NCBI RefSeq assembly: GCF_003612125.1
Contig: NZ_RAWI01000035.1
Location: forward strand, 1 to 41,594
Source of the DNA: Corallococcus praedator
Lineage (GTDB): Bacteria > Myxococcota > Myxococcia > Myxococcales > Myxococcaceae
Reading direction: 5' to 3'
Length of the DNA stretch: 41,594 bases
The stretch's first letter is position 1. Each line of letters begins with the position of its first letter. Positions 6,686 through 41,594 of the stretch are shown here, piece after piece. Both the position numbers and the translations under genes were made by a program. The notes below the pieces were generated by a model, which was not told the origin of the DNA, ran no database searches, and saw only the letters and a list, made by a program, of their open reading frames with translations.

Positions 6686-8288
6686 CGAGGAGTTCCTGCA
6701 GCAGCTCTACCGTGGAAGCGAGCTGCTGGGCGCCGGCAAGGTCATTGAAGCGAAGGACTTCCTGGAGCGTGCGCACCAGCTCCAGCCGCGTCACGAGAAG
6801 GCCCAGAACCTGCTGGGCCTGACCTATTTCAAGCTGGGCCTCTTCGACCGCGCCGCGGACCTGTACGAAATGCTCGTGCGGGACAACCCGGTGGACCCCA
6901 CGTTGCGCGTCAACCTGGGGCTCGTCTACCTGAAGACGAACGCGCTCCAGCGCGCGGCGCGCGAGTTCGAGACCGCCACCGACCTGGCCCCGGATCACAA
7001 GAAGGCCCACAACTACCTGGGCCTGACCTTCGCCCAGATGGGCGAGTACGGCCGCGCGCGCGAGCACTTCCTGCTGTCCGGCAGCGATGCCATGGCGGAG
7101 AAGATGTCGCGCGCCATCGCTGGTGAAGGCTTCAGCCGCCCCGCCGCGCCCGCCCGTCCCCGCGACGCGGAAGGCGGCGAAGGGGAGGGCGCGTCCACCG
7201 CCTCCACCGGCTCCGGCGAGAACGACTGGGGCGCCCAGTTCGGCCTGGACGAAGCACCCCGGAAGACTCCCGCCACGGGCGCCCGGGAAAGCCGACCTCC
7301 CGTCGCGGCGACGCCGCCGCCGCGCCCCTCGGACGACGAGCTGCGCTTCGACGAGGACGAGGATCCAAGCCTCGCCGCCGGTTCAGCCGCCCCTGCCTCC
7401 GACTCCGACGATGAACAGGCCCGGGCGCTGGCCGCGACGACGGACGCGTTCGCCTCCGGGGAGGACGTGGAGGTCTCCGACGAGCTGCCCCCGACCCCGG
7501 TGTCGGAGGAGATTGAAGTCTCCGAGGAGCCTGTCACCACGTTCGAGGAGACCTCCGCCGCGCTGGCCGCGAGCGAGCCCCCCGCGCCGGTCCGCGCCGC
7601 GCCGTCCCCGGCCGCGAACACGAGCGGATCCGGACCCGGCGTGAACCCACCGGTGCTCACCGAGTGGGCGCCCACGGCGGTCCTGCCGGGTGCCTCCGCG
7701 ACCCAGCCCTTCGTGCAGGGGCCCGCGAGCGTCGCCGTGTCGGTGAGCGGGGAGCTGCTCACCCGTCTGGAGGGGCTCATCGCCGTGCAGGGACAGGTCA
7801 CCTTCCAGCCGGAGATGAAGCGCTTCCGGGGCCGGGCCACGGACAAGCCCTTCGGCGACGGCGTCCAGGCCATGGTGCGCGCCCGGGGTCAGGGCACGCT
7901 GCACCTGGAGCCGGCCGCCGGGCGGCAACTGGTGGCGATGGTGCTGGACGACGAATCCGTCTACCTGCGCGACGCGAGCGTCTTCGCCTTCGAGGAGCCG
8001 GTGGTGTTCGAGAACGGCCGCGTGCCGTCGGACCTGGCGCCGGACCTGGACCTCGTGCACCTGCGCGGGCAGGGGCGGGTGCTCTTGAGTCTGTCGGGGC
8101 CGCTGCGCTCGGTGCCGGTGACGATGGACGCGCCGGTGTCGGTGCCCCTGTCCCATCTGGTGGGCTGGCTGGGCAACCTCACTCCGCGTGTGGTGCCGCT
8201 GCTCCAGTCCGCTGGCGGGGAGACACTGCGCACGGCGGTGGAGCTGGGCGGTGAAGGTTTTGCCCTCATCGCACTCGGGGTCCGGTAG
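6642..8288 (+). CDS. TPR protein with C-terminal AIM24-like domain
   Basis: 548 residues from ATG 6642. GTG 6624 is an in-frame alternative adding six residues, and neither has a clear Shine-Dalgarno. TPR-like helical repeats occupy ~16-150 (AQNLLGLTYFKLGLFDRAADLYEM and LRVNLGLVYLKTN style units). A disordered acidic/Ala/Pro linker spans ~150-355. The C-terminal ~360-548 resembles the AIM24 family, a beta-rich domain seen in mitochondrial AIM24 and many bacterial proteins of unknown role, with pieces such as LLTRLEGLIAVQG and HLRGQGRVLLSLSG. It overlaps the transglycosylase gene by 44 nt. No signal peptide is visible, so it is probably cytoplasmic. The TPR call is strong, the AIM24 call moderate. 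Confidence 0.8.
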   Translation: MTTRTKGTKEPGPADEEFLQQLYRGSELLGAGKVIEAKDFLERAHQLQPRHEKAQNLLGLTYFKLGLFDRAADLYEMLVRDNPVDPTLRVNLGLVYLKTNALQRAAREFETATDLAPDHKKAHNYLGLTFAQMGEYGRAREHFLLSGSDAMAEKMSRAIAGEGFSRPAAPARPRDAEGGEGEGASTASTGSGENDWGAQFGLDEAPRKTPATGARESRPPVAATPPPRPSDDELRFDEDEDPSLAAGSAAPASDSDDEQARALAATTDAFASGEDVEVSDELPPTPVSEEIEVSEEPVTTFEETSAALAASEPPAPVRAAPSPAANTSGSGPGVNPPVLTEWAPTAVLPGASATQPFVQGPASVAVSVSGELLTRLEGLIAVQGQVTFQPEMKRFRGRATDKPFGDGVQAMVRARGQGTLHLEPAAGRQLVAMVLDDESVYLRDASVFAFEEPVVFENGRVPSDLAPDLDLVHLRGQGRVLLSLSGPLRSVPVTMDAPVSVPLSHLVGWLGNLTPRVVPLLQSAGGETLRTAVELGGEGFALIALGVR

Positions 8289-8299
8289 AAAGCGCGCCC

Positions 8300-8998
8300 A
8301 TGGCCTCCTCGGACCGAGCTCTCCGGAAGCAGAAGAAGCGTGAGGAGCGGGCCCGCAAGCGCGCCTCCCGCCGTCCCAGCATCCTGGTGCAGGAGTTCTG
8401 GAACCTGCCCAACATGCTCACGTTGGGGCGCATCCTCATCATCCCCCTGTTCGTCTGGCTCACCTACGACGCGGATCCGCTCCACTCGCTGCTCGCGGGG
8501 CTGGTGTTCGCGGTGGCCTCCATCACCGACGTGGTGGACGGCTACCTGGCGCGCAAGTGGAACCTCATCACCGTCGTGGGCAAGTTCATGGACCCGCTGG
8601 CGGACAAGCTCATCGCCATGGCCGCCCTGGTGATGATGGTCCGCCTGGGCCGCATCGCCGCCTGGGTCGTCATCGTGTTGCTGGCGCGCGAGTTCATCGT
8701 CAGCGGCCTGCGCACCATCGCGGCCAGCGAGGGCATGGTCATCGCCGCCGGCCAGGAGGGGAAGTGGAAGACGTCCCTTCAGCTCGTGGGGATCATCTCC
8801 CTGTGCGTCCACTACGTGCACCCGCTGGACCTGGGCTTCCAGACCGTCACGGTCGACTACAACCAGGTCGGCAAGGTGCTCGTCTACCTGTCGGGCGCGT
8901 TCTCCGTGTGGAGCGCCGTCGTCTACTTCCGCGCGTTCCTGGCCATGCTCGCCCGGAGGGGAGGCGCGGATCCGGAGGCGGATGCGAAAAGTGTTTGA
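8300..8998 (+). CDS. pgsA: CDP-diacylglycerol--glycerol-3-phosphate 3-phosphatidyltransferase
   Basis: 232 residues, longer than the ~180 typical because of a ~35-residue basic N-tail (RKQKKREERARKRASRR). It is an inner-membrane CDP-alcohol phosphatidyltransferase that makes phosphatidylglycerol phosphate. The family motif D-x2-DG-x2-AR-x8-G-x3-D-x3-D is intact: D77, D80-G81, A84-R85, G94, D98 and D102. Several membrane helices follow. The C-terminal ~30 residues are hydrophilic. It starts 11 bp after the TPR/AIM24 gene. Its stop codon overlaps the -35 of the downstream tRNA promoter. Confidence 0.92.
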   Translation: MASSDRALRKQKKREERARKRASRRPSILVQEFWNLPNMLTLGRILIIPLFVWLTYDADPLHSLLAGLVFAVASITDVVDGYLARKWNLITVVGKFMDPLADKLIAMAALVMMVRLGRIAAWVVIVLLAREFIVSGLRTIAASEGMVIAAGQEGKWKTSLQLVGIISLCVHYVHPLDLGFQTVTVDYNQVGKVLVYLSGAFSVWSAVVYFRAFLAMLARRGGADPEADAKSV

Positions 8999-29534: not shown

Positions 29535-30164
29535 TCAATGTTCCGAATAGATGTGGGTGAGGCCGACTCTCAGGGCCGTCACGACCTCGGGGATGTCGAT
29601 CTCGAACCAGCCCCGGTTCAGGTCGGCGCGGGTGACTTGGTAGTAGACCGTGCCGAATTCGTCATCGAAGGAGAAGTCATCGACGTCGAAGATGGAGAGC
29701 TCGATAGGGTTCTTGAGGAGGTTGGACGACACCACTTGGCAGCTCCCCGCAGACCACCGGGGCTCCAGGCTCTGAACGGTCTCGGTGCGCGAGCGCTCGG
29801 AGGCGGAAGGGCAGCGCATCTCGACGACGACGTCCGGCGGCGAGCCATCCGGATCCCATTCCGGGTCCTCCTCGTCGAGCGGGTCGAAATCGAGAATGGA
29901 CGCCGCGAGGGGCTGCACCCGCGTGCGCATCACGCCCACGATGCAGGTCTGCTTTTGCAGGTGGCAGACCGAGCCCTCGGCACAGCCCTCACACGTGCCA
30001 CCCGTCCTGGGGCCGCAGGCATCATCCCCCAGGGAGCGGATGCACGTGTCGTCCGCCCCGCAGCACCCGTCCCGACAGTTGTCCGGGGTGCACTCCGAAG
30101 GCCCGCACGCGGAGAGGAGCAGCGCGCAGGTCAGGGCGAGTAGGAGGGACGCGGGTCTTCTCAT
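29535..30164 (-). CDS. Cys-rich, C2-like lipoprotein (copy 2)
   Basis: 209 residues from ATG 30164; the frame extends to 30260, but the signal peptide begins here. The signal MRRPASLLLALTCALLLSAC has lipobox LSAC. A compact Cys-rich region (~25-70) reads ECTPDNCRDGCCGADDTC ... CEGCAEGSVC, likely disulfide-bonded. The C-terminal ~100-205 resembles a C2 beta-sandwich: DGSPPDVVVEMRC, then LEPRWSAGSC in the place of the C2 NPxW strand, then LSIFDVDDFSFDDEFGTVYYQVTRADL, an acidic Ca-loop-like stretch. It is paralogous to the gene at 30400-31062, sharing DGSPPDVVVE and overall order. It is probably secreted to the outer envelope. Function unknown; the C2 assignment is by pattern only. Confidence 0.78.
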   Translation of the reverse strand: MRRPASLLLALTCALLLSACGPSECTPDNCRDGCCGADDTCIRSLGDDACGPRTGGTCEGCAEGSVCHLQKQTCIVGVMRTRVQPLAASILDFDPLDEEDPEWDPDGSPPDVVVEMRCPSASERSRTETVQSLEPRWSAGSCQVVSSNLLKNPIELSIFDVDDFSFDDEFGTVYYQVTRADLNRGWFEIDIPEVVTALRVGLTHIYSEH

Positions 30165-30399
30165 AAGGGCAGCGGCGAAATCTGGCAGACCTGGGGGAGT
30201 GGTATCAAACCACGCCCTGCGATGGCTGCATGCTGGCTCCCCACAGCGCGGTACAATCAAGGCTCATGGACGCCATTGACCGAGTGCTGGCTCGCGCTGG
30301 ACGGCCTTCTCCGCCGCGAACGGCTGGTGGGGAAGGGCTCCGAAAACACACGGCCCTCCGCATCCAGGAGCGATGGAACCCCCTGCCACAGGGCTCCGA
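30165..30399. other. 235-bp gap between the two paralogous lipoprotein genes
   Basis: No gene is supported here. The gap holds two small perfect hairpins: GTGGT-ATCAA-ACCAC (30199-30213), ~35 bp before the downstream gene's ATG and so operator-like; and CCCTG-CCA-CAGGG (30381-30393), just after the upstream stop and weakly terminator-like. No clear -35/-10 pair was found for the downstream gene. Confidence 0.4.
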
Positions 30400-31062
30400 C
30401 TATTCGGTCAGATAGGTGTCGAGCTGGAAGACCAGGGAGGTAACGGCCTCGGGAATCGCGACATCCACCGAGCGCCGGTCGAGGTCCGCTTGGGTCAGTT
30501 GATATTGGGCGACGGTGATCTCGTCGTCGAAGAACGCGTCGACATCAATGACCCTGAACTGGATGGGGGCCGCGAGGAGGTCCTGGGCGAGGACATCGCA
30601 GCCACCCTTGGTCCACTGAGGGGTCAGGCTCTCAATCTCTTCCGTGAGGGAGACCAGCGGCTCCGGCTGGGGGCAGGTCAACTCGACCACGACATCCGGG
30701 GGAGAGCCATCAAGGTCCCAGTCGCTGTCATCCGAAGGATCAAGAGCCGTGAGCGTAGCGCGAAGCGCCCTGAGCCGCGTTCGGATGACCGGGGTGATGC
30801 ACTCCTGCCTCGTCGGATGACACACCATTCCGGACGCGCATTTCGTGCAGACGCTTCCGTTGAGACCACACGCTTCGGCGCCCCGGGTCGTGATGCACTT
30901 GTTGGTCAAAGCATCACAACAGCCTGTGGTGCAATTTCCTGCGTTACAGACTTCGTCGAGGGGCGGCGGTTGTTCATCGACCGTAGGATCTTCAGCGGGT
31001 CCTGGGCAGCCAGTCACGAAGAGGAAGGACATCATGAAAACAAGGGAGAGGATTCGATTCAT
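30400..31062 (-). CDS. Cys-rich, C2-like lipoprotein (copy 1)
   Basis: 220 residues. The signal MNRILSLVFMMSFLFVTGC has lipobox VTGC (Cys19). Its order matches copy 2: an acidic/proline spacer, a Cys-rich region (CNAGNCTTGCCDALTNKC ... CTKCASGMVC, ~39-81), RTRLRALRATLTALDP, DGSPPDVVVELTC, LTPQWTKGGC and FRVIDVDAFFDDEITVAQYQLTQADL. The last parts resemble C2 strands with an acidic loop, so Ca2+ or lipid binding at the envelope is conceivable but unproven. It starts only 6 bp after the SIR2-like gene stop, which implies co-transcription with the upstream cassette. It has lower GC than the core genes. Confidence 0.8.
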   Translation of the reverse strand: MNRILSLVFMMSFLFVTGCPGPAEDPTVDEQPPPLDEVCNAGNCTTGCCDALTNKCITTRGAEACGLNGSVCTKCASGMVCHPTRQECITPVIRTRLRALRATLTALDPSDDSDWDLDGSPPDVVVELTCPQPEPLVSLTEEIESLTPQWTKGGCDVLAQDLLAAPIQFRVIDVDAFFDDEITVAQYQLTQADLDRRSVDVAIPEAVTSLVFQLDTYLTE

Positions 31063-31068
31063 GGAGGG

Positions 31069-32853
31069 CTACCGGGAACCGTTCAGATCAAGAAGAAGGA
31101 CGCGGGTTCCGTTGTCCTGACGCACTTCCGCGGTGGTCAGCCTGGCAACAGGAATGCTTACAGCTTGAGGTCGTTTATCACTTGGGCTTGGAACGAGTGC
31201 CACGCTCGTGGCTTGCTTCGAACGCAGGGTGGCTCTGCTCTGAGGGTCGACGTAGCCGACGAAGAAGAGTTCGTCGTTGGGGGTGCGATGCAGTTCGATG
31301 CCATCCCGGAGGCTACCGAAAAGCGGAGTCTTCGCATTGAACGAGGGAACGCTCTCCATTTGGACAAAGGCATACCGGCCTCGGGGGAGCTGATCCACGT
31401 GTGAAGCACGTTCCGCTGTCAATGCAACCGAGACCCGGTGCTGCTGTCGCAGGATGCTGATGGATTCGGCGGGCGCAGGGAAAGAGGTGAACACGGGTTT
31501 CTGCGGGTTGGGAATCGCATTTCTGGGCGGCGGCATATCCGTGCCGACCTCCCTGTGTTCATTGCTCTGGGTCACCAGCGCGAAGGCGCCAACGAACAGC
31601 GGAAGCGCCAGGACCGGCACGAGCCAGTTGGCAGTGGAGCGGTCCTTCTGGGGAGGTGACGACGCCTGATTGATGGCTGGTGAAACCGTGCTCGCAGGGG
31701 AAACGGCGATGACGGGGCCCGTTGGTGCCGGTTGCGTCGTGGCGGATTCAGGGCGCGGCGAATGGGGCGGACGAGGCCGGGTCGTTGACGCGTTGACAGG
31801 GGCCTGGGCCGGGTGTGAATCGCCAGTACCGCCAGCCCGTTGATCCGGGACTGTTGCACGCTTCGCGTCCAGGTCACCTTCACCGATGGCGGAAGGGGCT
31901 CCAGGCGTGTCGAAGTCCTCGCGGATTTTCGCGAAGAGTTCATGGCAGTTGATGCCACCATAGATGCGAAGCTGGTTACGGCCAGTCAGCTCTCTGATTT
32001 GGTTGAAGAGGTGCTTGTTTCTCGCTTCGACAACGACGGTTTCGCTGTCGTAGAAGGCCCAGAGGATGTCTACGTTCTGGTGGCGATCAGCTGCGATGGA
32101 TGAGAGCGTTTGGGTGAAGACATCGTCCCATCCGCCGTATCCAACGACAATCAGGGTGTGGGTGTTGAGGAGTCTGATGATGTCGGCCGTAACGCGCTTG
32201 CGTTCACGAGCGATTTCCATGGGGGTGTGGAGGGTTTCGCCGTTGAGCCAGTAACCATGGAGGTGAACGATGTGGGCGACATTGGGGGTTGAGAGCTTGG
32301 CTTGGCTGAATGGCTCATCCCGGTCGACCACAGTCCGGAGGAATTCCCCTTTTGCCATCTTCACGGATGCGGAGATGAGGGGATCAAAGTTCGTTGTCAG
32401 GACGGGGCCAAAGCGTTCGGGATGGTCCGCGAGGAGCTTGCCCAGATGGAGTGTCGCAGGGGGCAATGCCCAGCCGCTGAAGTCGTCATCGAGCTGTGCT
32501 TCCGTGAGTCCAGACTCATTCCGTGCGTTTGTTCGGGCTCTAAGGACCGCCTCGCGAATGACGGTATTGGCGATGCCTCTGTTGCTGCGATCCTGGAGGA
32601 ACTTCATTGCCCACTGATAGCGGTTGTTTTTGCCGGCCTTGAGTTCTGCGTCGAACTGCTCGAGGTGCTTGGCCGGAACGCGCTTTCGGATGAGTTCGAG
32701 CATCGCCTCCACCCCTGGAACCTGAGGGGCATCTTCCTTCGCCTGCGTGGAGAGCGGCGACCCAACGAGAAAAGCGATTTTCTTGTTGGGGGTGGATGCC
32801 TGCAAGGCGCTGCGAAGTGCGTCCAGTGGAGGAAGGGAGTTGTCAGAGGACAT
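31069..32853 (-). CDS. SIR2-like domain protein with transmembrane helix and C-terminal extracytoplasmic domain
   Basis: 594 residues. SIR2-like domain (~20-315): KIAFLVGSPLST (Rossmann start), VLTTNFDPLI (153-160), HIVHLHGYW (197-202 core) and LIVVGYGGWDD (236-244). These are the signatures of SIR2-like domains, which in Thoeris ThsA, DSR and other defence proteins degrade NAD+ upon phage sensing. A Pro/Ser/Thr-rich linker (~315-405) leads to one membrane helix (~410-428, WLVPVLALPLFVGAFALV) and a ~160-residue C-terminal part (RYAFVQMESVPSFNAKTPLFG, GTRVLLLDLNG) that I do not recognise; N-in/C-out topology would put it in the periplasm. It lies 39 bp after the GIY-YIG-like gene. GC content is clearly lower than its neighbours (one 60-base line counted at ~55%), suggesting transfer. 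NADase activity is inferred. Confidence 0.85.
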   Translation of the reverse strand: MSSDNSLPPLDALRSALQASTPNKKIAFLVGSPLSTQAKEDAPQVPGVEAMLELIRKRVPAKHLEQFDAELKAGKNNRYQWAMKFLQDRSNRGIANTVIREAVLRARTNARNESGLTEAQLDDDFSGWALPPATLHLGKLLADHPERFGPVLTTNFDPLISASVKMAKGEFLRTVVDRDEPFSQAKLSTPNVAHIVHLHGYWLNGETLHTPMEIARERKRVTADIIRLLNTHTLIVVGYGGWDDVFTQTLSSIAADRHQNVDILWAFYDSETVVVEARNKHLFNQIRELTGRNQLRIYGGINCHELFAKIREDFDTPGAPSAIGEGDLDAKRATVPDQRAGGTGDSHPAQAPVNASTTRPRPPHSPRPESATTQPAPTGPVIAVSPASTVSPAINQASSPPQKDRSTANWLVPVLALPLFVGAFALVTQSNEHREVGTDMPPPRNAIPNPQKPVFTSFPAPAESISILRQQHRVSVALTAERASHVDQLPRGRYAFVQMESVPSFNAKTPLFGSLRDGIELHRTPNDELFFVGYVDPQSRATLRSKQATSVALVPSPSDKRPQAVSIPVARLTTAEVRQDNGTRVLLLDLNGSR

Positions 32854-32892
32854 TGAACTGGAAGGGTATCAGACAGGTGCACTTTTCCGAGT

Positions 32893-34455
32893 TCACGCCG
32901 CCTGCGCTGCGGTGGCTCCGCGCTCCTCTTCTTGGAGCGCCAACGTCTTGCGGTACTCCGCCGCTTCCGCGAGCTGGGTCAATTCGAACTCTCCGTGGTG
33001 CTTGCGGACAGCCGCGGCGATCTCTTCCAGGCTGACGCGGAAGAACTCTTTGCGCTCGTTGATGCGATTGACGCGCCGGTCCGTGAAGGCGCGGTGCAGT
33101 GCGCTCTCCAGCGCGGGAGCATCCGAGGTCCGGATGATGGCATGCACGTCGAACTCGAAGGGGACGGAGGCGTCCCCCAATTCGTCGATGCGGTCCTGCG
33201 GCACCAGCCTTCGCGTCATCCCCAGCTTGTAGACGCCTTCCCCGAACGAGCCGATGTTGGAGATGACGTAGACGTGTCCCGTCCGCGTGAGCTGCGCCTG
33301 GGAGATGGCCCGCTGCTTCTCCATGTCCTCGGCCACCCGGCGCTCCAACTCCGCGATGCGTTCCTGCATCCGTTGCTGTTCGGGCCCCTTGGCTTTTTCG
33401 TAGTCCAGCCGGGCCCGGGCCAGGGCGTCCGCATCGCGTTTGGCTTCACGCTCCGCTTCCAGCTTCGCCTTCTCCAGCTCTCTCTGGGCGGCCTCTTCCT
33501 CCCGCATCTGCTCCCGGATGCGGCGCTGTTCGTCCCGCTCCTGTTGCACCTTCTCCGAGTACTCGTACGCCAGGAGCAACTCATCCCGCTTCAGCTTCAC
33601 GTACTTGCGCACGATGACGCACTGCTGGATCTCCGTGAGGCTGTTGATGGCCGCTGCCGCCTTCTCGAGGCGCGTCTCCATGGCCTTTACGTTCTTGTAC
33701 GTCACCTTCGCGATGCAGGCGTCCGCCTCGCCGTTGAAGGCGCGCAGCATCAGCTTCAGCGTCCGGTCCGTCTGCTTCCTGCCTTCCGCCTTGCTGCCGT
33801 TGACCTCCCATTCCAACGAGCACGTTGCCGCCTGCTTGTCCTTCAACATCTGCTTCTGGCCTTCGCGGAGCGTCTCCAGCCGGTCCTCGTATTCCTTCAC
33901 CGAGGAGAGGGCATACACGGGCTTGTAGAACCCGAAGGAGAGCAGGACGGCCTCCTCCTCCAACTGCTTCAGCTCCGCCTTCAATCGGCCGATTCCCGAT
34001 TCCAGTGCCGTGCGCTCCGTGTTCGCCTGGAGCCGCCGTGCCTCCGCTTCCGCCATGGCCCGTTTCGCGGCCTCCGTTGTCCGGGTGGCTTCGTCGCGAA
34101 TGCGTGTCAGCTCCGCCTTCGCCCGCGTCTGTTCCGCGGCGACGGCCTGCTCGACATCCGCCTTCGCCTTCGCAAGCTGTGTCTCCACCCGCCTCTGTTC
34201 CGCGGCCAGCGCACCGTCCGCCTCGCTCCGTGCGCGAGCCAGCTCCTCCTGGACGCGTTTCTTCTCTGACGCCATGGCCGCGTCCGCGTCCGTTCGCGAG
34301 CGCGTCAGTTCTTCAGCGACCCGGCGCCTCTCGGCTTCCAGGTCCAGGATGGGCTTGAACCGATCCTGCACGGCCTGGAGCTGAAGCCGGGTCCGGAACC
34401 ACAGTCCCACGAAGAGAAGGGTCAGCACTCCCAGCGAAATGGCAATGATTGACAT
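32893..34455 (-). CDS. Membrane-anchored coiled-coil DUF4041 / T5orf172 (GIY-YIG-like) protein
   Basis: 520 residues. An N-terminal membrane helix (IIAISLGVLTLLFVGLWF, ~3-20) precedes a long Ala/Glu/Arg coiled coil (~30-170). A DUF4041-like middle (~170-310: LLSFGFYKPVYALSSVKEYEDRL, CIVRKYVKLKRDELLLAYEYS-type helices) and a second coil (~300-390) follow. The C-terminal T5orf172/MUG113-type domain (~392-485) has GHVYVISNIGSFGEGVYKLGMTRR, DRIDELGDASVPFEFDVHAII and E450 in ALESALHRAF. That layout matches GIY-YIG-fold nucleases (first strand, KLGMT/R strand, catalytic Glu). Such proteins are common in phages and defence islands; activity is not established for most. It lies 33 bp after the helicase gene, on the same strand. 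Confidence 0.86.
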   Translation of the reverse strand: MSIIAISLGVLTLLFVGLWFRTRLQLQAVQDRFKPILDLEAERRRVAEELTRSRTDADAAMASEKKRVQEELARARSEADGALAAEQRRVETQLAKAKADVEQAVAAEQTRAKAELTRIRDEATRTTEAAKRAMAEAEARRLQANTERTALESGIGRLKAELKQLEEEAVLLSFGFYKPVYALSSVKEYEDRLETLREGQKQMLKDKQAATCSLEWEVNGSKAEGRKQTDRTLKLMLRAFNGEADACIAKVTYKNVKAMETRLEKAAAAINSLTEIQQCVIVRKYVKLKRDELLLAYEYSEKVQQERDEQRRIREQMREEEAAQRELEKAKLEAEREAKRDADALARARLDYEKAKGPEQQRMQERIAELERRVAEDMEKQRAISQAQLTRTGHVYVISNIGSFGEGVYKLGMTRRLVPQDRIDELGDASVPFEFDVHAIIRTSDAPALESALHRAFTDRRVNRINERKEFFRVSLEEIAAAVRKHHGEFELTQLAEAAEYRKTLALQEEERGATAAQAA

Positions 34456-34488
34456 GGGTGTCCCCCCACCGAAGCGGGAAAGTCTAGG

Positions 34489-37400
34489 TCAGGCACTCAG
34501 GGAACGCATCCGACCCTCGGCGGGCGGGTCGTCGCGGACCACCACGGGCAGCTCCGCCGCGTCCTCTTCCCGGAGCAGCGTGTCGATGCGTGCGATGATC
34601 CGCGCAACCTCTTCCGAGGGTGAGCGGAACCAATCCGTGGACCAGATGCGATGCAGCCGCCACCCCAGCCCCGTCAACACCTGGTCTCTCAGCCGGTCGC
34701 GATCCCTGGCGGATCGTGAGCTGTGATAGCGCGCACCGTCGCACTCCACGCCCAGGATGTAACGGCCGGGATGACGGGGATGCCGTATGGCCATGTCGAT
34801 GAAATAGCCCGCGACGCCCACCTGGGGCACGACCTCGTAGTGGTGTGCCGCGAGCGCTTTCGCCACCGCCACCTCGAAGTCCGAATCCGGCGGGCGTCCA
34901 CTGCCCACGCCGTGGGCCACGATGGCACCCTGGGCCTCCAACAGGTAACGCTGCAGGACGCGCATCCCCCGGGGACTGCTCTCCTGCACCTTGAGGTCCG
35001 TTGGGTCGAACGACGCGAACACCGTCAGCGCACACCGTGCCCGGGTGAAGAGCACGTTCAAGCGTCGGTAGCCGTCCGCCTGGTTGATGGGCCCGAAGTT
35101 CTTCCGGAAACGGTTCTCCCGATCGTTGCCGAACGTCACCGAGACGAAGATGGCGTCGCGCTCGTCGCCCTGGACGTTCTCCAGGTTCTTCACATCGAAG
35201 GGATTGGGCGTCTTCGCCCAGGACGCCAGGAAGGCCGCGAGCCGTGCATCCTTCTTCTCCTCCGCCAGCACGAGCGCGTCGATGAGTTCCCGCTGCTTCG
35301 AGTTCAGCGTGACGACCAGCAGGCTCTGGGTGGGGCGGGTGTGCGCATGCTGCCGCACGGCCTCCACCACCGCGCGGGCCTCGGGCTCGTTGCGATTGGA
35401 CTCATAGAGCCCGTCCTTCACCCGTTCAAAGCGCAGCCCCAACCCCTCCAGGTGCTGTCCGGGCGCGGGAAAGACGATGAGGTCTCCGTTGTAGAACTCC
35501 CGGTTGCTGAAGGAGATGAGCGCCGGGTGCCGGGAGCGGTAGTGCCAGCGCAGCATGCGCATGGGGAAGCGCCGCGCGGCGGCCACCAGGATGCTCTCCG
35601 ATTCATCCAGGAGGGACGGGCCCCGTGCCTCCTCGGGCTCAGTGGCTTCGTCACCCGTGTCGTCGTCGTCCCGTTCGAGCTGCGCGAAGAAGCTCGTGGG
35701 CGGAAGCTGCTCCGGGTCTCCAACCACCACCAGTTGGCTGCCCCGGGCGATGGCGCCCAGCGCGTCCTCCGGGCGGAGCTGGCTGGCCTCATCCATCACC
35801 ACCAGATCGAAACGCAGGTGCCCGGGTGGCAGGTATTGGGACACGGACTGCGGACCCATCATGAAACAGGGCATCAGCGCCTGGAGCGCGCTTCCCGCGC
35901 GTTGCACCAGCTCACGGATGGAGACGTGGCGCTGCTTCTTGCCCAACTCGTGCTGGATGAGCTGTACCTCCGTCAGGCCCGCCACCTTCTGCGAGTGCAC
36001 GCCCTGCGGCACCGGCCGACGGCTGAGCTGATGCGCCAGGTTCGGTCCCTGTTGCCCGATGAGCTGTGCATCCAGTCGCGCGAAGTCCTCCCGCTGCGCG
36101 GCGTGCACGGCGCCCGTGAACTGATCGAGCTCCGGCTGTTCCCTCAAGACGGACTCGGCGAGGGACCGGAAGAAGACAGCGTCGAAGGCGGCGAGCAGCT
36201 TCGTCGCCAGCGCAGGCCGGGAGTCGATCCGCGCCAGGAACGCGGCGGTGGAGCGCAGGCGGGTCACCGCGTGCCGGTGCCGCTGGTACGCGGCCCAGCC
36301 GGGAAGGGTGGTCGCGCGCTCCAGCGCCCTGTGCAGCCGCCGCACGGTGGCCGCGAGCGGTGACTCGGAGGCCGCGTCCTCCCAGGTTCCGGGCTCCATG
36401 TGTCCCAGTTCCTGCGCCCGTGCTGTCGCGTCACGGTAGTCCCGCAGGCGGGCTTCCACGTCGTGGCTCCGCGCCCCCAGGTCCGCGTGGCGACGCACCG
36501 TGTCCTCCCGCAGCAGCCAGCCCGCGAAGCCTTCGGGCAGGGGCGCCGCGAGCACGTCATCGACGTAGCGCGCGAGCGCCCGGGGGCCGGCCGTGAGCGT
36601 CTTCCTTCCCTGGTACTCCGTGCCCAGCAACGCGGACGCCGCCGCATGGTCCTTCAGTCGCTCCGCTGCCTCGCACGCCTCGCGCACGGTGCGCACCTGG
36701 GCCTGGAGCTGGACCAGGGGCAGTGAAGGCGGCGCATCCGCCCTGCGGGCCTGGTCCAGGACCTCTCCCAGGTGGACGCGGAGCGCACCCAGGCTGGCTT
36801 TCACCTGGGACACGGGTTCGGTGTTCCACGAGTTCTTCCGCAGGTGCATGCGCGTTGCGGCTTCCCGAACCGCGTCGCTCACGTTGCGGGCCTGGCTGTG
36901 CGCATCCCCCTGGGCCGAGGCCTTGGCGATCGCCTCGCGCCAGCGATTCGCGGGCAACTCCAGGGCCATGCGTGCCAGGGGCTCGACGCTGGTGCCCATG
37001 GGGCGCAGCAGCGCTTCCACCTTCCTCCAGACCTCCACCCACGAAAGGAGTCGATCGAAGCGCGTCGCGGTTCCCTGGAAGCGCTCGCCCAACAGCTCGC
37101 GCAGAGAGGCGTCCGCCTGGAAGCGCTCACGTGCCGCGTGATGCGCCAGCAGGTCGTTGTACCCGAGGATCAGCAAGGGCCGTGTCGGCCGCTGACCATG
37201 GGCCATGGCCTGGAAGTCACGCCGCGCGGAGCGCCACCCCCGCGACAGCCACGGGATGAACGGTGCGGTCGACACGGCGACGGCATGCGCCTTCAGCGTC
37301 TCCAGGGAGGGGACGAGCTCGGGCATGAAGCGGACGGCGAGGGCTCGCGCCTGTTCGTCCAGGTCGTCGCGGGTGCGCGCCGCGTTTCGCAGCAGCTCCT

Positions 37401-39672
37401 CCGCTGCTGGCGTCACCCAACGGGCATCGCGCCAGTCCAGGGCGCCGTCGTCCAGCCCCGCCATCGCATCCACGACCCGCGCGAGCGTCTGGATCATCGC
37501 GGGCGTCAAAGGCCCTTCGAGCCCCAACACGGGAGCGAGTCCTTCCGCGAACGCACGTCCCTGGTCGACCGCCGCCAGCGCGTGCTCCACCGCTTCACGG
37601 GCCCGCGCCACGGTGAGCAGCGGGGTGTCCGGGGTGAAGAGCCGCAGGCAGGTGTCCAGCAGCGCCTCCGCACCCTTCAGGGCCTCCGCGGTCAGGTCCT
37701 CGCGGGAGCGCCAAGCGGCCTCCAGACCTGCCCACTGCCGTTGCACCGACTCGATGGCATCCAGGAGCGAGCGCAAGGCGTCACGGTTCGCAGGCTCCAG
37801 GAGGGCGGATTTAAGGCCAGGACGAGGTGGCGTCGGGGGCTCGGGCAGCAGATGCACCGCGCTCACGAAGGCGTCCGCCGCGAGGGCGCTGTTCCGGAGG
37901 GCCATCCCCGTGAGGGGGGCCAGTGCCGCCAGGGACTGCTCCAGGCCCAGCGCGGCTTCCTTCCATGCGGTGGTCCGCTCAATGAGCGCCTGGCAATCCC
38001 CGGCGCTCAGGTTGGGATTCTTGATCCCGGACCAGGGATGCTCGGAGGGCAGGGGCGCGACGCGGAGGATGTCCTTGAACTGCGCCGCGAGTCCCCGGAG
38101 CGCTTCGCGCACTTCCTCCAGTGCCGTGGGGGACACGCTCGCGGCCGCCTCGATGCGCACGTCCTTGAGCGCAGCGACTTCATCCCCCAGCTCTGTTTCG
38201 GACCGGCTCACCCTCCAGAAGATGTCGTGCGGCGTCAGCTCCAGGCCTCCCTGGGCCGAGTGCAGTCGCTCGGTGTGCGCGCGCAGGACGCCAATGGCCT
38301 GCGTGACCTGGGCTCCCAGGGGTCCTGTCGCGACTGCCGTGGGCCGTTGTTTCAGCCGTCTGCGCAGGTCCTCCATGAACTGCTGCTTCTGGGTCTTGTG
38401 GCTGTGCAGCTCCAGGCAGAAGTCGCCCAGCCCCGCCTGCTGGAGTCGTCGGGAGACGACCTCCAGGGCCGCCATCTTCTGCGTGACGAACAGCACCGTC
38501 TTGCCCGCCGCCAGCGCCGCGCCGATGAGGTTGGTGATGGTCTGGGACTTCCCCGTGCCCGGGGGGCCCTGGACCACCAGACTCTCGCCCCGAAGCACGT
38601 CCACCAGCACGCTGTGTTGGCTGCTGTCCGCGTCCGTGATGAGCGGAGGGACCTCCGACGCGAGCGCAGGTGAGTCCAGGTCATAGACATCACTCCGGCG
38701 CTCAGCGATGGCGGGTGCGGCGCCGCCATTGGATTCCTTTTCCTGCCTGCCACCCAGCAGCGTCCGAACCTGGGGACTGGACAGCAGGGGGCTCGAATCG
38801 GGCCAGCGACCCGGCTCCAGATCCCGCCACATGAGCAGCCGTCCAAAGGACAGCAACGTCAGGGTGACCTGCCGCTCCAACCCCCACCCAGGACGCACGT
38901 TCGCCAGGAGCGTGTTCACCTTCGCGAAGTACGCCTCCAGTCCTTCGTCCGCATCGAACACGGGCAGCGCGATGCCGAACTCCTGCCGCAGCTTCTCCTG
39001 GAGCGTGAGGTTCAGCTCGATGGACTCTCCCTCGTTGTAGTCCACCTCGTAGGCGTGGACCTGCGTCTTCGCATCAGGCGCGTTGCGCCGGAGGCTGACC
39101 GGCATCAGCACCAGTGGCGCGCTGCGCGGCTTCTCGCGCGCGACATCCCCTGGCTCGTACCAGCGCAGGAATCCGAAGACGAGGTGGAGCAGGTTCGCCC
39201 CCGTCTCCTGGATGGCGGTCTGCGCGAGTCCCTGCAATTGACGCAGTTGGGACTCCAACTCCTCCGGAAAGTAGAGCGTCTGGACGTGGCGGTCCTGGTG
39301 CTTGCGCGAACCGGCTGCACCGTCCGTTGTGGCAAGCGGCAGCTCGAAGCGGGTGTCGATGCCCAGCCGTTCGGCCTCTTGGGTCGCCAGCCGTTGCCGG
39401 GACACGGGAGGCGCGACGGCCTCCATCGTGAGCACTCCGGGACGCGGCTCCTTCGCGGGAGCTTCGCGTTCGGGTTCAGGCACTGGCAGGAACGTGAGCG
39501 CGCGATGGTTGCTCAACCGCTCGAAGATGATGCCGGGAAGCTCATCCACCAGCCGCAGCGACGTCCGCACGGTATGCCGGAAGTGGAGGAGCCGATTGGA
39601 TGCACTCAGATCCAGGAGCCGCGTGCGCTGCCGTTCAAGCTCCTTCAGCAGGACCGGATCTTGCGGAGTCAT
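34489..39672 (-). CDS. Large SF1 helicase with N-terminal DUF4011 and C-terminal PD-(D/E)XK nuclease
   Basis: 1727 residues. The N-terminus is DUF4011-like (LLDLSASNRLLHFRHT, ~19-34). The SF1 motor has Walker A GPPGTGKSQ (369-377), a very long helical insertion (~460-1200), Walker B MDEAS (1293-1297), motif III VVGDPEQLPP (~1317), and motifs V/VI VQGDERDAIFVS (~1500) and RRLNVLFTRAR (~1536-1546). The C-terminal ~1600-1710 is a restriction-endonuclease fold of the REase_MTES_1575/DUF559 type: FEVAVAKALAAHHYEVVPQVGVAGYFID, then ECDGARYH. D1626, E1643 and D1645 form the likely D...E-x-D site. DUF4011 helicase-nucleases are found in defence islands and resemble Mokosh-type proteins. It is first in the minus-strand cassette. 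All key motifs are intact. Confidence 0.9.
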   Translation of the reverse strand: MTPQDPVLLKELERQRTRLLDLSASNRLLHFRHTVRTSLRLVDELPGIIFERLSNHRALTFLPVPEPEREAPAKEPRPGVLTMEAVAPPVSRQRLATQEAERLGIDTRFELPLATTDGAAGSRKHQDRHVQTLYFPEELESQLRQLQGLAQTAIQETGANLLHLVFGFLRWYEPGDVAREKPRSAPLVLMPVSLRRNAPDAKTQVHAYEVDYNEGESIELNLTLQEKLRQEFGIALPVFDADEGLEAYFAKVNTLLANVRPGWGLERQVTLTLLSFGRLLMWRDLEPGRWPDSSPLLSSPQVRTLLGGRQEKESNGGAAPAIAERRSDVYDLDSPALASEVPPLITDADSSQHSVLVDVLRGESLVVQGPPGTGKSQTITNLIGAALAAGKTVLFVTQKMAALEVVSRRLQQAGLGDFCLELHSHKTQKQQFMEDLRRRLKQRPTAVATGPLGAQVTQAIGVLRAHTERLHSAQGGLELTPHDIFWRVSRSETELGDEVAALKDVRIEAAASVSPTALEEVREALRGLAAQFKDILRVAPLPSEHPWSGIKNPNLSAGDCQALIERTTAWKEAALGLEQSLAALAPLTGMALRNSALAADAFVSAVHLLPEPPTPPRPGLKSALLEPANRDALRSLLDAIESVQRQWAGLEAAWRSREDLTAEALKGAEALLDTCLRLFTPDTPLLTVARAREAVEHALAAVDQGRAFAEGLAPVLGLEGPLTPAMIQTLARVVDAMAGLDDGALDWRDARWVTPAAEELLRNAARTRDDLDEQARALAVRFMPELVPSLETLKAHAVAVSTAPFIPWLSRGWRSARRDFQAMAHGQRPTRPLLILGYNDLLAHHAARERFQADASLRELLGERFQGTATRFDRLLSWVEVWRKVEALLRPMGTSVEPLARMALELPANRWREAIAKASAQGDAHSQARNVSDAVREAATRMHLRKNSWNTEPVSQVKASLGALRVHLGEVLDQARRADAPPSLPLVQLQAQVRTVREACEAAERLKDHAAASALLGTEYQGRKTLTAGPRALARYVDDVLAAPLPEGFAGWLLREDTVRRHADLGARSHDVEARLRDYRDATARAQELGHMEPGTWEDAASESPLAATVRRLHRALERATTLPGWAAYQRHRHAVTRLRSTAAFLARIDSRPALATKLLAAFDAVFFRSLAESVLREQPELDQFTGAVHAAQREDFARLDAQLIGQQGPNLAHQLSRRPVPQGVHSQKVAGLTEVQLIQHELGKKQRHVSIRELVQRAGSALQALMPCFMMGPQSVSQYLPPGHLRFDLVVMDEASQLRPEDALGAIARGSQLVVVGDPEQLPPTSFFAQLERDDDDTGDEATEPEEARGPSLLDESESILVAAARRFPMRMLRWHYRSRHPALISFSNREFYNGDLIVFPAPGQHLEGLGLRFERVKDGLYESNRNEPEARAVVEAVRQHAHTRPTQSLLVVTLNSKQRELIDALVLAEEKKDARLAAFLASWAKTPNPFDVKNLENVQGDERDAIFVSVTFGNDRENRFRKNFGPINQADGYRRLNVLFTRARCALTVFASFDPTDLKVQESSPRGMRVLQRYLLEAQGAIVAHGVGSGRPPDSDFEVAVAKALAAHHYEVVPQVGVAGYFIDMAIRHPRHPGRYILGVECDGARYHSSRSARDRDRLRDQVLTGLGWRLHRIWSTDWFRSPSEEVARIIARIDTLLREEDAAELPVVVRDDPPAEGRMRSLSA

Positions 39673-39851: not shown

Positions 39852-41450
39852 CTACCGGCGCTTCATCGCCGCGTCCGCGTGCTTCTCGCGGAACTCGGAG
39901 TAGGGGCCGTTGAAGTCGAGCACTTCCTTGCCCGCCTCCAGGCTCCAGATGCGCGTGGCGACCTCGGAGATGAGCTCCTGGTCGTGCGTGACGACGATGA
40001 CCGTGCCCTCGAACTTCTGGAGGCCTTCGGCCAGCGCCGCGATGGACTCCAGGTCCAGGTGGTTCGTCGGCTCGTCCAGGATGAGCACGTTGTCCTGCAT
40101 GATCATCAGCTTCGACAGGAGCACGCGCACCGTCTCACCACCGGAGAGCGTGTCCGTGTTCTTCATCCGCTCTTCACCGGAGAACAGCATCCGGCCCAGC
40201 ACGCCGGAGATCTCCTCGTTCGTCAGCTTCTCGCTGATCTCCCGCAGGTAGCCGAAGCAGGTCGTGCCCTTGTAGATGACCCCGTGGTGGTCCTGCGGCA
40301 GGTAGCCCACCGACGCCTGATGGCCCCAGGTGATGGTGCCCGCGTCCGGCTCCGTCTTTCCGGCCAGCATCTTCACCAGCGTGGACTTGCCCACGGCGTT
40401 TCGGCCGATGACGCAGATGCGCTCGCCCTTGCAGACCAGGCCGGTGAACGGCTTGATGACCTGCACGCCGTCGTAGGACTTCTTCAGGCCCTCGAACATC
40501 AGCGTCTGCCGGCCGCTGACCACCTTCTGATCAAACCGGATGAAGGGCCGCGCGATGTTCGAGCGCTTCAGGTCCTCCGTCTTCAGCTTGTCGATCTGCT
40601 TGATGCGGCTCTGCACCTGCGAGGCGCGCGTGCCGGCGTGGAAGCGCGCCACGAAGTCCTGCAACTGGAGGATCTTCTTCTTCTTCTCCTCCGTCTCCGA
40701 CTCCACCCGGGTCCGCAGCTGCGACTTCTGACGGACCATGTCGTCGTAACCACCCGTGTACTGGATGATGGTCTCGTAATCGATGTCCGCGATGTGCGTG
40801 CAGATGGAGTTCAGGAAGTGCCGGTCGTGGCTGATGGTGATCAGCACGCCCTCGTACTGGTGGAGGAAGGTCTCCAGCCAGCGGATGGAATCGATGTCCA
40901 GGTTGTTCGTGGGCTCGTCGAGCAGCAGCCCGTCCGGCTTGCCGAACAGCGCCTGCGCGAGCAACACACGCAGCTTCAGGCCGCCCGTCAGCTGGCGCAT
41001 GGGCTCTTCGTGGAAGGCCTCGTCGATGCCAAGGCCCGCCAGGAGCGTGGCCGCGTCGCTCTCCGCGGAGTAGCCGTCCTCTTCCGCGATGACGCCTTCC
41101 AGCTCACCCAGCCGGTTGCCGTCCTCCTCGGTGATGTCGGACTTGGCGAGCAGCTTGTTCTTCTCATCCATCGCCGCCCACAGGTGGCGGTTGCCCATCA
41201 GCACCACGTCCAGGACGCGGTCGTTCTCGTAGCGGAAGTGGTCCTGGCGCAGGATGCCCAGCTTGCGCGGGCGGATGATGTCGCCCATGTCCTGCTCCTC
41301 GTCACCGGCGAGGATCTTCATGAAGGTGGACTTGCCGGCCCCGTTCGGACCGGTCAGGCCGTAGCGACGGCCCGGCGAGAAGGCGACGTTGACCTCCTCG
41401 AAAAGTTTCTTGGGCCCATAGGCCTTGGAGACGTTGATGACGTTGAACAT
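39852..41450 (-). CDS. ybiT: ABC-F family ATPase, YbiT type
   Basis: 532 residues from ATG 41450 (MFNVINVSKAYGPKKLFEEV), matching the ~530 of E. coli YbiT; the frame upstream to 41570 adds 40 atypical residues. It has two ABC domains and no membrane segments. Domain 1 has GPNGAGKST, LTGGLKLRVLLAQAL and LLLDEPTNNLD. The charged linker (RVESETEEKKKKILQLQDFVARF ...) is the P-site tRNA interaction motif region. Domain 2 has GRNAVGKST, LSGGETVRVLLSKL and LILDEPTNHLD. Note GGLK in place of GGQ/GGE in the first signature, as usual for this subgroup. ABC-F proteins act on the ribosome E site to relieve or regulate stalled translation. It is a conserved housekeeping gene that bounds the accessory block. 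Confidence 0.92.
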   Translation of the reverse strand: MFNVINVSKAYGPKKLFEEVNVAFSPGRRYGLTGPNGAGKSTFMKILAGDEEQDMGDIIRPRKLGILRQDHFRYENDRVLDVVLMGNRHLWAAMDEKNKLLAKSDITEEDGNRLGELEGVIAEEDGYSAESDAATLLAGLGIDEAFHEEPMRQLTGGLKLRVLLAQALFGKPDGLLLDEPTNNLDIDSIRWLETFLHQYEGVLITISHDRHFLNSICTHIADIDYETIIQYTGGYDDMVRQKSQLRTRVESETEEKKKKILQLQDFVARFHAGTRASQVQSRIKQIDKLKTEDLKRSNIARPFIRFDQKVVSGRQTLMFEGLKKSYDGVQVIKPFTGLVCKGERICVIGRNAVGKSTLVKMLAGKTEPDAGTITWGHQASVGYLPQDHHGVIYKGTTCFGYLREISEKLTNEEISGVLGRMLFSGEERMKNTDTLSGGETVRVLLSKLMIMQDNVLILDEPTNHLDLESIAALAEGLQKFEGTVIVVTHDQELISEVATRIWSLEAGKEVLDFNGPYSEFREKHADAAMKRR

Positions 41451-41594
41451 GGCGGCGGCTTGTAGCGGAAATGGCGCGTCCACCAAAGACGCGCGGTGAA
41501 TCGGGGCCCGGCGGCGTACCGGAGGACCCAATGTAACCGCCGGCACGCCCCGGAAATGCCGGCTTCCCACCCCGTTTCCAGGCCCCCCCTGGCC
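41451..41594. other. Upstream region of the ABC-F gene
   Basis: No gene is seen. On the minus strand, TTGGTG and TACAAG separated by 16 bp end ~13 bp before the ATG and could be a promoter giving a near-leaderless transcript; the match is weak. Confidence 0.25.

Follow-up and report, generated by a model that had tools for sequence, protein, structure and literature searches.

Herein, our findings lead us to lean, if slightly, toward reading the window (the whole 41,594-nucleotide stretch of Corallococcus praedator DNA that was analyzed, from a source assembly of 10.5 Mb) as a defense hotspot with two independent modules, the second of which would be an envelope-sensing abortive receptor with swappable nucleotide-depleting heads. 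Module A would comprise an Hhe-like helicase-nuclease and SNIPE. Module B would comprise a SIR2 protein with a transmembrane (TM) segment and a C-terminal domain (CTD), together with a Cys-rich C2 lipoprotein, as one transmembrane receptor-like unit. Judged by sequence, genes 1 and 2 are new members of known defense families and form a conserved pair. Genes 3 and 4 represent an apparently undescribed, modular two-gene family, which in the sampled genomes is restricted to this myxobacterial family.

The three minus-strand open reading frames of the preliminary description were recovered exactly, with gaps of 33 and 39 bp. Gene 1 (34489..39672) encodes a 1727-aa Hhe-like protein with DUF4011, an SF1 helicase and an MTES_1575 nuclease of the PD-(D/E)XK type, as assigned by Pfam, PADLOC, NCBIfam and alignment. 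Gene 2 (32893..34455) encodes a 520-aa homolog of SNIPE (PD-Lambda-1) with an N-terminal TM segment, a coiled coil, DUF4041 and a GIY-YIG domain carrying E450 (PADLOC, Pfam, TM scan). Gene 3 (31069..32853) encodes a 594-aa protein with a SIR2_2 NADase-like domain (residues ~1–310), a Pro-rich linker, a TM segment (~410–428) and the CTD (~449–594), based on Pfam, the TM scan and an AlphaFold model of the CTD. The domains attributed to the three genes were confirmed by Pfam (DUF4011 with SF1 AAA_11/12 and MTES_1575 REase; DUF4041 with T5orf172/MUG113; SIR2_2), and the TM scan found the predicted membrane segments as one hydrophobic stretch each in the SNIPE homolog and the SIR2 protein. The run had been taken to end at 31069, but it continues. 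The gene for the partner lipoprotein (30400..31062, minus strand, 220 aa) starts 6 bp past the SIR2 stop and co-travels with the SIR2 gene elsewhere; alignment, Foldseek and adjacency assign to its product a signal peptide, a lipobox (VTGC), a Cys-rich module and a C2 domain. Housekeeping genes had been placed on both sides of the cassette. This is correct for the side of the ABC-F ATPase (39852..41570, minus strand, NCBIfam), the conserved left flank of the variable locus, which is 93–99% identical in G001, G002, G005, G009, G011, G012 and G013. It is incorrect for the other side, where lipo1, a paralogous C2 lipoprotein outside the module, is located (29535..30260, minus strand, Pfam C2 3.6e-6). 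Lipo1 is conserved across the genus; it was ruled out as a cassette member because it lies 5–7 kb off in relatives (L024, L025, L113–L116) and also occurs without the cassette. A promoter scan of the window found none, and terminator-like sites were near shuffle level, every one on the plus strand.

The best PADLOC models for gene 1 were PDC-S37 (1234 bits) and Hhe (949 bits). Against the NCBIfam Hhe model (NF042953), it scored 1396 bits (1395.9), under the equivalog cutoff of 2000. Alignment with K. pneumoniae Hhe gave 594 identities over 1690 aligned residues (35%), collinear over the full length, and the motifs checked were kept, namely Walker A, Walker B, the later SF1 motifs and the ECDG nuclease motif. 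Gene 1 shares with Hhe the collinear arrangement of DUF4011, SF1 helicase and MTES_1575 nuclease, but among the PADLOC models it is closer to the candidate PDC-S37 than to Hhe. Its sequence marks it as Hhe-like, and we do not file it as Hhe proper. Assignment as Mokosh MkoA was rejected, with only 103 bits in PADLOC compared to 1234 for PDC-S37. Phage DNA is the expected target of this Hhe-like protein.

Gene 2 matches PADLOC PD-Lambda-1 at E = 1e-151 and carries DUF4041 (PF13250, 2.2e-20 in Pfam), with a single TM segment inside the first 70 residues (2–20, KD 2.33). PD-Lambda-1 was characterized in Nature in 2026 as SNIPE, a GIY-YIG nuclease of the E. coli inner membrane that acts alone and cleaves phage DNA while it is being injected; substitution of E414 abolished its defense (PMC13190303). 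In comparison with an E. coli DUF4041 protein, 201 residues of gene 2 are identical and E450 aligns with residue 414. These matches identify gene 2 as a SNIPE homolog and a member of a known system. By analogy, its product would be an inner-membrane protein that cuts phage DNA on injection. It shares with SNIPE the TM segment near the N-terminus, DUF4041 and the GIY-YIG domain with its catalytic Glu, but differs in its longer coiled coil and in the adjoining Hhe-like gene. The preliminary description had recognized no named system in this locus. A literature search found no paper on such a SIR2-TM-lipoprotein unit, but gene 2 is already named (SNIPE; PMC13190303), gene 1 is close to Hhe, and the true partner of the SIR2 gene is the overlooked lipoprotein. 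The view that all three genes belong to defense families stood, and conservation of the cassette was seen within the genus.

Conservation was followed in 16 genomes of the genus. Full-length Hhe was found in seven of them (G000, G001, G005, G008, G011, G012 and G013), and SNIPE adjoins it in all seven. The SIR2 protein and the lipoprotein are also present in five of these (G000, G001, G005, G008 and G012), the run in G005 spanning two contigs with the break within SNIPE. The same order was repeated in 5 of the 16 genomes, indicating that the arrangement is not due to chance. In a comparison aimed beyond the myxobacteria, Hhe and SNIPE shared no plasmid record among the best 60 matches of each, out of 329 and 183 records, respectively.

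Conserved order and short gaps in five genomes would suit the earlier proposal of one three-gene system, with phage DNA sensed or processed by the helicase-nuclease and with SNIPE and the SIR2 protein as membrane effectors. Other genomes argue against it. In G011, Hhe (92% identical) and SNIPE (96% identical) are present and the SIR2-lipoprotein pair is absent; G013 has only Hhe-SNIPE, and G047, from another genus, has Hhe-SNIPE without SIR2. Conversely, G055 carries the SIR2 protein and lipoprotein without Hhe or SNIPE, and neither was seen near the SIR2-lipoprotein pair of G122 and G126 in 14–15 kb stretches, as far as these were read. In G009 (L048, 9839–10109, minus strand), one internal deletion has left only about the first 58 and the last 35 codons of Hhe; the two remnants share a few bases, beyond which the frame is shifted, and the neighboring SNIPE is still open. 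E. coli SNIPE also defends alone (PMC13190303). Because the modules occur separately, a single three-gene system was rejected, and we consider helicase-nuclease sensing coupled to SIR2 execution highly improbable. Between the window and G008, dS (NG86) was 0.57–0.59 for Hhe and SNIPE and 0.85–1.19 for the SIR2 protein, the CTD and the lipoprotein, a contrast that would fit separate histories of the two modules and to which base composition may contribute.

The slot itself varies among relatives. A 275-aa gene with an HTH-like N-terminus and no PADLOC match (L113, 10636–11463, plus strand; L048, 7417–8244, minus strand) fills the SIR2-lipoprotein position after SNIPE in G011 and G009. Between the same ABC-F flank and lipo1, G002 carries an AAA ATPase that weakly resembles AriA/PtuA/Old-type models, and G003 has a PNP-domain protein ~8 kb upstream of lipo1. 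Since other defense-like genes fill the slot in sister species, the site behaves as a defense hotspot.

Searches with the CTD profile covered 145 genomes at the level of the order and 195 at that of the phylum. Among the 195, it was found in 14 genomes, only within this myxobacterial family, so the signal of horizontal spread is weak. The CTD is joined to three types of head: SIR2 (eight proteins), PNP nucleosidase (four; L082, L085, L086 and L087, PF01048 at 1.9e-14 to 6.6e-23) and a Lamassu-LmuA-like dehydrogenase (one; L063, LmuA match at 2.6e-92 with FAD/NAD Rossmann signatures). The PNP and LmuA heads score on PADLOC effector models. A further copy, L081, is truncated. The CTD tree does not group by head. 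The PNP protein of G112 and the LmuA-type protein of G058 form a pair (support 0.78), and the SIR2 protein of G055 sits among PNP proteins with weak support. This mixing makes at least two head swaps likely. As a side note, the G055 record (L003, BNCN01000021) is titled Comamonas sp. KCTC 72670, yet its family is that of the window and its genes are of myxobacterial type; the label is probably wrong.

In all 13 loci with a full-length CTD protein, a lipoprotein gene lies no more than 95 bp away; it follows the CTD gene in 11 and precedes it in two (L086 and L087), where the lipoproteins have two Cys-rich repeats. These secreted proteins combine a Cys-rich motif (C...CxxGCC...C...CG..G..C..C) with a C2-like domain. 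A clear lipobox was found in eight of these 13 proteins; the remaining five carry a comparable Cys-containing leader that either misses the pattern used or matches it at the wrong Cys. Genomes contain only one to three members of the lipoprotein family, and the adjacent copy is the sole one in five genomes. The chance product of this adjacency is ~1e-44 with ten genomes taken as independent, a value overstated owing to common descent; the adjacency is still far from chance. CTD and lipoprotein distances were correlated (Mantel r 0.93, 0 of 5000 permutations), with r of 0.87 when four of the five genus g1 copies were left out. In G120, where the SIR2 N-terminus is broken, no lipoprotein homolog is left in the genome.

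Such strict pairing, co-loss and co-divergence would also be expected of a toxin-inhibitor pair, in which the lipoprotein restrains the membrane SIR2 protein until its own loss or titration releases the enzyme. An outside inhibitor of a cytosolic enzyme must act via the CTD, though, so this explanation, which we rate as quite unlikely, largely merges with the receptor model.

Foldseek matched the C2 part of the lipoprotein to C2 domains (E 5e-6, probability 1.0). Although the alignments were shallow, AlphaFold modeled the CTD and the C2 domain with confidence. A model of a fused CTD-lipoprotein, obtained by in-frame read-through of the SIR2 stop, was confident for each domain but not for their arrangement, with a pTM of 0.46 and no interface. 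Orphan C2 lipoproteins occur next to housekeeping genes, and the lipoprotein could serve something other than phage sensing. Two neighbors of the lipoprotein gene are recorded here in their own right. In G001 (L024, 5097–6464, minus strand), a gene matching the PADLOC candidate PDC-M51A (1.3e-151) lies directly downstream of it. In G059 (L085, 3835–5850, minus strand), a different second SIR2 protein of 671 aa, with weak LmuA and ThsA matches, follows the lipoprotein of a PNP-headed module by ~7 bp.

The favored reading of module B as an envelope-sensing receptor can be stated as a sequence of steps. The CTD, which would lie outside the cytoplasm, and the lipoprotein would jointly respond to what happens at the envelope, for instance the adsorption of a phage, the injection of DNA or damage to the membrane. 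The C2 fold of the lipoprotein, a type that typically binds lipid and calcium, may mediate this sensing. The single TM helix would relay the signal into the cytosol, where the SIR2 domain would destroy NAD+ and stop the infected cell. The N-terminal enzyme is interchangeable (SIR2, PNP nucleosidase or LmuA-type dehydrogenase), with the TM-CTD/lipoprotein part kept. The topology is based on one hydrophobic segment, which is weak in G126 and G063, along with flanking charges and the lipobox. We infer the extracytoplasmic CTD, direct CTD-lipoprotein contact, the envelope trigger, NAD+ loss, the abortive outcome and the antiphage role.

The same receptor-like anatomy belongs to another explanation, in which module B is a myxobacterial device for self-recognition or antagonism. 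The lipoprotein and CTD would then read neighbor contact or outer-membrane exchange, and the head would kill on mismatch. Confinement to one family of social bacteria and the lipoprotein partner are consistent with this, as are an Imm52 gene ~0.2 kb upstream in G058 and the faster evolution of the CTD (dN/dS 0.35, compared to ~0.10 for the SIR2 domain, which is under purifying selection). However, the heads are those of antiphage systems, and the slot is shared with Hhe, SNIPE and AAA/PNP defense-like genes. We regard self-recognition as unlikely.

The active-site residues N155 and H199 of the SIR2 head are invariant among the eight homologs. The nearest SIR2 domains in other phyla (30–40% identity) are found at the N-terminus of ~1050-aa proteins. 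Most of these distant relatives, among those scanned, carry nSTAND_NTPase5, NB-ARC or related AAA domains with TPRs and are NLR-like STAND immune proteins. The window protein shares the SIR2 head with SIR2-STAND proteins (NLR-like, Avs-type) but differs in lacking a STAND NTPase (SIR2_2 alone in Pfam) and in having the TM segment and CTD, with an extra lipoprotein. SIR2, PNP and dehydrogenase-type domains are known to replace one another as effectors in Lamassu, CBASS/Detocs and NLR-like systems (PMC10952713, PMC10586767). The CTD family carries the same exchangeable heads as Lamassu LmuA and the CBASS/Detocs Cap17 PNP, but the window gene differs from these systems in having no SMC (LmuB), CD-NTase or two-component gene next to it, and in being membrane-anchored with a lipoprotein partner. 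Gene 3 was considered and rejected as Thoeris, since it has only SIR2_2 and no ThsA match and is flanked by SNIPE and the lipoprotein rather than a TIR ThsB. It was likewise rejected as Lamassu, as no SMC-like LmuB adjoins it and Pfam found no SMC domain in these two neighbors. No DSR or HerA model was among the PADLOC matches of the window, and the fold searches with the CTD turned up no relatives, of DSR or SIR2-HerA type or otherwise.

In the bacterial immune systems reviewed, SIR2 and PNP suicide enzymes are mostly tied to cytosolic sensors. Module B may, tentatively, define a new class of transmembrane immune receptor, with an extracytoplasmic CTD and C2 lipoprotein as the sensor, a swappable cytosolic nucleotide-destroying effector and sensing at the level of the envelope. 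If so, a fixed membrane-spanning sensor with an exchanged enzyme would resemble the layout of Toll-like receptors and would offer a simple two-gene system for studying the route from envelope damage or phage entry to cell death. Stacked with SNIPE, an entry-point defense, it would give one locus two entry-stage defenses. Module B also adds the CTD and its lipoprotein partner as search targets.

The window CTD had no Pfam, PHROGs or PDB family match, and its profile found nothing significant among PDB sequences. Fold searches reached a best E of 0.33 in PDB and 0.07 in BFVD (Foldseek) and a best Z of 3.4 with VIA, values that do not prove the fold new. With tblastn, the CTD had no match in phage records. 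A short TM-CTD protein of 192 aa (L027, G012:C1:6813000-6829000, 7725–8300, minus strand) is 34% identical to the window CTD (E 7.6e-18). This copy had no match in IMG/VR (tblastn) or PHROGs. Its surroundings are provirus-like and include genes for a GH19 endolysin and a terminase/ATPase-like protein (phrog_2666, 2.4e-5). The domain was either captured by the virus from module B or is itself derived from viruses of this kind.
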